From: Candidatus Uhrbacteria bacterium CG10_big_fil_rev_8_21_14_0_10_50_16
GTDB taxonomy: Bacteria > Patescibacteriota > Patescibacteriia > UBA9934 > UBA11717
Direction: 5' to 3'
Assembly: GCA_002774875.1 (NCBI GenBank)
Contig: PCYM01000007.1
Span: 1 to 36,871 of the forward strand
DNA: 36,871 nucleotides
Part shown: positions 11,874 through 23,592 of the stretch, piece after piece
How positions within the stretch are numbered: the stretch's first letter is position 1
Layout of the letters: each line of letters starts with the position of its first letter
The notes under the pieces: generated by a model
Database searches by the model: none
Told to the model about the DNA's origin: nothing
What the model saw: the letters and a program-made list of their open reading frames with translations, nothing else
Position numbers and translations under genes: made by a program

Positions 11874-11947
11874 TCGGGGATCGTCTAATGGTAGGACACC
11901 AGGTTTTGGTCCTGGGAATCGGGGTTCGAACCCCTGTCCCCGAACCA
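11874..11947 (+). tRNA. tRNA-Gln (anticodon TTG)
   Basis: The acceptor stem TCGGGGA (11874-11880) pairs with TCCCCGA (11937-11943), followed by discriminator A and an encoded CCA (11945-11947). The anticodon stem CCAGG/CCTGG encloses TTTTGGT with anticodon TTG at 11906-11908. The T arm has GGTTCGAACC. Confidence 0.97.
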
Positions 11948-15818: not shown

Positions 15819-15894
15819 GCCACTGTAGCTCAGCTGGTAGAGCAATGCCTTCGTAAGGCAGAGGTCAGCGGTTCGACTCCGCTCAGTGGCTCCA
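15819..15894 (+). tRNA. tRNA-Thr (anticodon CGT)
   Basis: GCCACTG (15819-15825) pairs with CAGTGGC (15884-15890), followed by discriminator T and an encoded CCA (15892-15894). The anticodon loop TTCGTAA carries CGT at 15852-15854. The T arm GCGGTTCGACTCCGC is intact. Confidence 0.96.
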
Positions 15895-23280: not shown

Positions 23281-23320
23281 TCTCTATTTTTCTAGCTTGT
23301 CAAGGGGGCGGGTGTGGAAA

Positions 23321-23346
23321 AATAAAAAAACGAGGACGTATCCTCA
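23321..23346 (-). terminator. Terminator after the tRNA-Lys-like remnant
   Basis: GAGGA/TCCTC (23332-23336 and 23341-23345) with a 4-nt loop, followed on the minus strand by TTTTTTTATTTTT. It resembles the terminator of the intact tRNA-Lys upstream. Confidence 0.7.
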
Positions 23347-23480
23347 TCTTTCTTTGGTGCGCCGGGCGGGAATCTCACGTCGGCCTATGGCCTCTTTAAA
23401 ACCATGCGGTTTTAATGTTTCCTCCTTGGGGGAACACCCAGTTCCCCCATCGCCCCCTCTGGTTCGAATCCCTTCTCTTA
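23341..23480 (-). pseudogene. Decayed tRNA-Lys-like copy with 31-bp direct repeat
   Basis: 23341-23371 is identical, base for base over 31 nt, to 23503-23533: half of the terminator hairpin, the CCA, and the acceptor end of tRNA-Lys. Beyond that the sequence diverges: the T arm has lost its GTTCGAA core, and a TTTTAAA loop-like segment remains near 23395. The stretch also contains hairpins GGCC-TAT-GGCC, TTAAAACC-ATG-CGGTTTTAA and GGGGGAAC-ACCCA-GTTCCCCC. No 5' acceptor strand is found, so no functional tRNA can form. Confidence 0.6.
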
Positions 23481-23484
23481 AAAA

Positions 23485-23513
23485 AAGAAAGATGGAGAAT
23501 CATCCTCATCTTT
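23485..23513 (-). terminator. Terminator of tRNA-Lys
   Basis: AAAGATGAGGA/TCTCCATCTTT (one mismatch, one GU) with loop TGAT on the minus strand, followed by a T-rich run (CTTTTTTT) at about 23487-23480. Confidence 0.75.
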
Positions 23514-23516
23514 CTT

Positions 23517-23592
23517 TGGTGCGCCGGGCGGGATTCGAACCCACGACCTTGGGCTTAAAAGGCCCCTGCTCTACCAACTGAGCTACCGGCGC
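23517..23592 (-). tRNA. tRNA-Lys (anticodon TTT)
   Basis: The minus strand GCGCCGG (23592-23586) pairs with CCGGCGC (23527-23521), followed by discriminator A and encoded CCA (23519-23517). The D arm has AGCTCAGTTGGTAGAGCA, the anticodon loop CTTTTAA carries TTT, and the T arm GGGTTCGAATCCC is intact. Confidence 0.97.

Follow-up and report, generated by a model that had tools for sequence, protein, structure and literature searches.

What occupies the short stretch between an intact tRNA gene and a second copy of that gene's own 3' end? The question is raised by the tRNA-Lys(TTT) gene in contig PCYM01000007.1 of Candidatus Uhrbacteria bacterium CG10_big_fil_rev_8_21_14_0_10_50_16, where the window (the whole stretch of DNA analysed) is 36,871 nucleotides long. 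A sequence-only reading had described a 31-bp direct repeat at this gene, and the repeat is there: positions 23341-23371 are identical to 23503-23533, inside a 57-nt pair of 82% identity at a spacing of 162. In line with that reading, the repeat contains the tRNA-Lys 3' end and the first part of the terminator, the interval between the copies is short, and three hairpins are present within it. The repeated end includes the CCA, the interval is 131 bp, and the hairpins are read on the minus strand. The T-arm-like piece reported on the opposite strand is also found (GGTTCGAATCCC, plus strand 23461-23472), forming a 12-nt inverted repeat with the tRNA T-arm; it is the left arm of the element described below, complementary to the end of its target. 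A chance match is excluded for an exact 31-bp repeat within 200 bp, and other tRNAs show the same layout. On the tRNA strand the order is tRNA, first terminator (T1), left arm GGGATTCGAACC, three hairpins, GACGTGAGATT, the copied tRNA 3' end with its CCA, and second terminator (T2), with the following coordinates:

23517-23592, minus strand: tRNA-Lys(TTT), the intact target gene, whose 3' end (T-loop onwards) is copy one of the duplication
23478-23516, minus strand: first terminator T1, a hairpin and then a T run, separating the tRNA from the element
23461-23472, minus strand: left arm GGGATTCGAACC, complementary to the target T-arm
23368-23472, minus strand: the element, arms plus core; matches model R1 at 114.9 bits, being itself among the four sequences from which R1 was built
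23427-23449, minus strand: hairpin 1
23396-23415, minus strand: hairpin 2
23382-23392, minus strand: hairpin 3
23368-23381, minus strand: right junction GACGTGAGATTCCC; the GTGAG part is family-wide and CCC is part of the target copy
23355-23371, minus strand: second copy of the tRNA-Lys 3' end, TCCCGCCCGGCGCACCA
23318-23354, minus strand: second terminator T2, its first 16 nt the same as T1 and divergent after that

The other two tRNA genes of the window, for Gln and Thr (11874-11947 and 15819-15894), have no element behind them, and R1 matches only the tRNA-Lys copy. An identity with an Rfam family was considered and set aside: the window gives only its three tRNAs at gathering score, and in a permissive scan of six related loci only tRNA and tmRNA rose above the cut-off.

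The interval behind tRNA-Lys is a structured element of about 105 nt that carries no genes, and it has relatives. In the same genome, tRNA-Ala and tRNA-Leu have one further copy each, and beyond each copy the end of that tRNA is repeated; a sister genome has copies behind tRNA-Ala and, more diverged, behind tRNA-Glu, again with the end of the respective tRNA duplicated. Strong R1 matches were confined to these two genomes among 72 genomes of the order. A pattern drawn from the junction revealed the same layout at Tyr, Gln, Ser, Gly, and Arg tRNAs of other families; across 380 genomes it gave 18 matches, two of them already known; on reading, nine were judged to be elements and nine not. A covariance model, R2, built from five copies found by this pattern, gave 106 matches in 46 of 380 genomes of the class at E<=0.01, with a maximum of ten per genome. 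At E<=0.001 it matched in 22 of 379 genomes of the phylum, 11 of those 22 outside the class, and 11 of the 12 loci that were read there sit behind a tRNA. In total, 98 copies were laid out (95 via R2, three via R1 only); two other R1 matches, L144 and L147, were unconvincing on reading and were set aside. These units are mostly solitary. For 77 of the 98, a tRNA precedes the unit on the same strand at a distance of 8-182 nt (within 70 nt for 74 of the 77), and the hosts cover nearly all amino acids.

We also considered a viral origin, which was rejected: none of the 96 viral stretches that fit a 14-base pattern matches R2. Viral sequences gave no match to two core patterns, no phage match was obtained, and the five plasmid matches listed, out of 11, are limited to the tRNA part of the query. 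A search limited to CC-licensed literature returned no published description of the family.

Taken across the family, the general layout is a gene end, a spacer that in most cases is a terminator, a left arm that can pair with the target, three hairpins, and a second copy of the target end. T1 is terminator-like (hairpin plus T run) in 64 of 74 copies. The tail copy agrees with its own host at a mean of 14.5 of 16 positions, and at 14 or more in 58 of 77 copies, versus a mean of 8.8 of 16 against other isotypes, where 0.02% reach 14 or more. Two observations count against reading the family as mobile elements. First, 19 of the 77 tail copies fall below 14 of 16, and for 10 the own host is not the single best match. 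Second, just 28 of 77 left arms fit their own host strictly better than any other, partly because T-arms resemble one another.

The fold is strongly conserved. Compensatory changes occur at 33 of 33 base pairs, in that both sides vary in some copy, and 93.6% of cells pair; the covariation score is 0.634, where shuffles give 0.204 (sd 0.006) and slid pairings no more than 0.132, in a 97-row alignment that was fitted to the model and hence leans towards the structure. A U.U mismatch and tandem G.A pairs in the closing stem make the two strands unlike. Along the tRNA strand of hairpins 1-3, G-T pairs number 43 versus 11 A-C (1733 Watson-Crick cells); for comparison, tRNA acceptor stems have 18 G-T versus 1 A-C (307 Watson-Crick cells). 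Such pair statistics do not decide between single-strand DNA and RNA, and this is counted against a mobile-DNA reading.

Several lines of evidence suggest that the element moves. In G341, two different Ser tRNAs are followed by copies that are alike in T1, arms, and core and part immediately beyond the CCA in the second tail, and a third copy has the same T1 and core next to a different upstream flank; two Gln copies in G018 behave as the Ser pair does. Units occur in tandem in G247, and in G320 about 2 kb separates two units, a stretch that contains one long ORF. At L167 in the latter genome, the single ORF between the two nearly identical units is 490 aa long and is possible cargo; its protein has no Pfam match. 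Empty sites are seen as well. In G003, a relative in the same family, the syntenic locus consists of a glycosyltransferase, tRNA-Lys, and a MurG-like gene, with one tRNA, a simple terminator, and no element; at tRNA-Arg(tct), G326 has the element and three genomes of the same genus have none.

The cores also indicate what happens when a new gene is entered. Among 77 copies having a genome mate, 43 find their nearest core within their own genome, often at a different tRNA, where shuffling gives a mean of 2.8 and a maximum of 12. Between genomes, the nearest core has a host tRNA for the same amino acid in 9 of 75 cases (expected 3.9, sd 2.2). Near-identical cores are found at different tRNAs, for example His/Glu in G107 (96%) and Ala/Arg in G326 (95%); in eight such same-genome pairs the arms pair 107/128 with their own partner versus 70/128 when swapped. 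Since cores group by genome and not by target, arms and tail change with each new target.

Genes other than tRNAs are entered too. Non-tRNA sites include tmRNA (2 copies), the lepA 5' end (2), the rplK 5' end (1), and the pyrG 3' end (1), the lepA and rplK insertions being antisense at the 5' ends of the genes. Duplication of the gene end on both sides of the element is clear at L189, L260, and L261 (scores 37, 55, and 51) and weak at L258 (score 9). At each protein-gene site the left arm is complementary to the target over 10-14 nt; thus, matching arms follow the target and are no feature of tRNA structure as such. Two loci have further sequences of their own around the copy. Just upstream of one copy, and probably inside the target tRNA, lies a group I intron (L262:664-921; Rfam RF00028, 79.6 bits). 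In G001, the region upstream of a tRNA-Glu copy (L168:8950-9180) is a hotspot of repeated fragments, with partial tRNA-Glu pieces and what appears by eye to be the start of a GIY-YIG-type reading frame; at L168:9680-10360 an ORF that looks by eye like a membrane protein lies between a full and a partial unit near tRNA-Glu.

Based upon these comparisons, the window feature is probably a copy of a Patescibacteria family of small, gene-less, non-autonomous mobile DNA elements that restore the gene they enter. The family is apparently mobile, as judged from the comparison of genomes. Integration would convert a target A|B into A-B-T1-(left arm, three hairpins, right junction)-B, so that the intact gene would retain a working 3' end (B) and usually its terminator (T1), with a second B on the far side. 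The working form may be a folded single DNA strand, whose closing stem, made of the left arm and B, would recreate the junction sequence as in an integron attC, and an enzyme acting in trans, perhaps a tyrosine recombinase, would carry out the reaction. At a new gene, the B part would come from the target, and the left arm could be re-made by copying B, for example through fold-back synthesis.

More tentatively, the element may be mobile DNA that rewrites its own ends: a core without fixed terminal repeats would take the target end as its right flank and obtain its left arm by self-primed fold-back copying. We regard this as possible, though well short of likely. The hairpin stem would thereby always match its present address, and the universal T-loop (GTTCRA), common to the old and the new target, would serve as the bridge between tRNAs. 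At L212 the untouched downstream flank has CCTGTT where the left arm begins, complementary to the junction AACAGG, and at L236, L029, and L030 the duplication extends a few bases into the left arm. These four cases are a hint in favor of arm copying. The flank with the natural CCTGTT site is not shared by congeners.

How else could such a unit arise? The best-surviving alternative is an ordinary satellite of a tyrosine integrase, in which a minimal attP with a tRNA end and terminator is moved in trans by a phage or island integrase, with fixed target specificity and with the hairpins as accessories. An intact gene with a displaced fragment is the classic signature of such integration, as described for Islander (PMC4383910), and in G341 and G018 the unit is accompanied by T1 as it travels. 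T1 and T2 are moreover unlike in most copies (13 of 62 lie above the 99th percentile of random pairs), as this account would have it. However, a fixed attP leaves unexplained why cores cluster by genome and why arms and tail change per target, and the re-matched arms on near-identical cores rule it out as the explanation of that pattern. The length of the duplication is variable as well: in the clearest T1/T2 duplicates it extends from the T-loop to about the left arm, mostly some 50-60 nt and about 170 nt in L212. Nor does a fixed integrase gene adjoin the copies. We consider this alternative unlikely, if the most serious of those we weighed.

A mobilising enzyme was also sought. Tyrosine recombinases (PF00589) are encoded in 19 of 20 element genomes, but when compared the matches fall mostly into two widespread, housekeeping-like groups, one XerC/XerD-like and one of 275 aa. 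The first usually adjoins tRNA-Arg. The second is kin to integron integrases, below the curated cut-off, and in seven proteins scanned the cut-offs for integron integrase proteins were not reached. A scan of 30 recombinase loci showed the element at two, in each case next to Xer genes of the housekeeping-like kind. Across the 20 genomes the mobilising enzyme was not found, and neither reverse transcriptase, Y1 transposase, nor tyrosine recombinase could be linked to the element, which we count against the mobile-element reading. Two side observations belong here. The XerC/XerD-like gene lies near tRNA-Arg(tct) at every one of L267, L269-L272, L274, L275, L277, L278, L282, and L288, a neighbourhood that is conserved across families, and G341 (L150), the richest genome seen with ten copies, has seven tyrosine recombinase and two reverse transcriptase matches.

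Insertion could instead be mediated by RNA, a reverse transcriptase copying folded element RNA into a nicked target with duplication of the target. The strong covariation of a single-strand structure, the excess of G-T over A-C pairs in the stems of the tRNA strand, and the variable length of the duplication are all consistent with this. Yet reverse transcriptase genes were found in just 11 of 20 element genomes and not in G264 (6 copies), G305 (6), or G175 (5), and the terminator-like hairpin separates tRNA and element in most copies, which together make the RNA route improbable. Still less credit is due to a functional small RNA processed from tRNA transcripts and spread by duplication, as for rtT of E. 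coli tyrT. It would fit the conserved fold and the shared strand of tRNA and element in the copies counted, but T1 precedes the element, the lepA and rplK insertions are antisense, no Rfam match exceeds the cut-off, and the distribution is patchy at 46 of 380 genomes.

Finally, a decayed tandem tRNA or the footprint of an excised island would give a duplicated tRNA 3' end with little in between, but we judge this to have next to no chance, given that the interval belongs to a family conserved at tRNAs and protein genes that are unrelated, and that the relative with the syntenic locus has a lone tRNA there and lacks the element. Of the three possibilities raised by the sequence-only reading, the minimal satellite at a tRNA integration site thus came close to the mark, in that the unit is repeated and apparently mobile. 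A decayed tandem tRNA is refuted by a core of the same structure at many different tRNAs and by the single tRNA-Lys of G003, and an excision scar is unlikely, since it is the interval itself that is conserved.

If the mobile-DNA reading is true, an element with no genes of its own that reaches nearly every kind of tRNA and leaves it intact, re-matching its arms each time, would be a new solution to target recognition, and it would bear on how small elements switch attachment sites. The element is also a feature at the level of the phylum in Patescibacteria, a large group of ultra-small bacteria about whose mobile DNA little is known, and it may account for assembly breaks and for false 'tRNA fragments' in their genomes.

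How does the element compare with known systems? REP/BIME and other palindromic non-autonomous elements are short, hairpin-rich, and mobilised in trans. The element is likewise short and hairpin-rich, but Y1 transposases, found in 8 of 20 element genomes, were not found in the other 12, the window's own included, and a long target stretch is duplicated. The rtT repeats of E. coli tyrT likewise repeat the 3' end of a tRNA downstream of its gene, as the element does; in contrast to them, it has no match to the rtT Rfam family, and the same core occurs at many tRNAs.

The resemblance to integron attC sites covers the gene-poor unit, a palindromic site with a single-strand fold, arms by which the recombination site is recreated, a possibly branched terminal structure, mismatches that make the strands unlike, and tandem units (one case here). 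The element has the attC-type combination of a single-strand fold, paired outer arms, and a terminal structure. Lengths of attC are given as 57-142 nt (PMC2727003). Unlike attC, which is bounded by conserved R'/R'' boxes as described in the same source (PMC2727003), the element has arms that vary with the target; it uses many tRNA genes where integrons have one attI, and no integron integrase (intI) platform adjoins it. Genomic islands at tRNA and tmRNA genes, as described for Islander (PMC4383910), similarly restore the gene end, displace a fragment, and use both kinds of target. The element differs in its small size and lack of genes (the window's unit has no room for an integrase gene), in re-matching arms and tail at another tRNA, and in targeting some protein-gene ends; Islander discards candidates under 2 kb (PMC4383910). 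Strand-biased circularizing integrative elements (SEs) are described as having imperfect inverted repeats, four conserved genes between them, strand-biased, copy-out-like movement, and a 6-bp footprint (PMC10214605), whereas the element has neither four genes nor room for them and duplicates tens of bases. TIGR arrays are described as tandem dual-repeat arrays near a tas gene (PMC12045711).

Integron attC sites, tRNA islands, REP-like elements, and SEs thus each share part of the features of the element. We know of no system with target-matched arms that change as the core spreads. If a recombinase does act on the folded strand, the element would be a mechanistic relative of integrons outside integrons.
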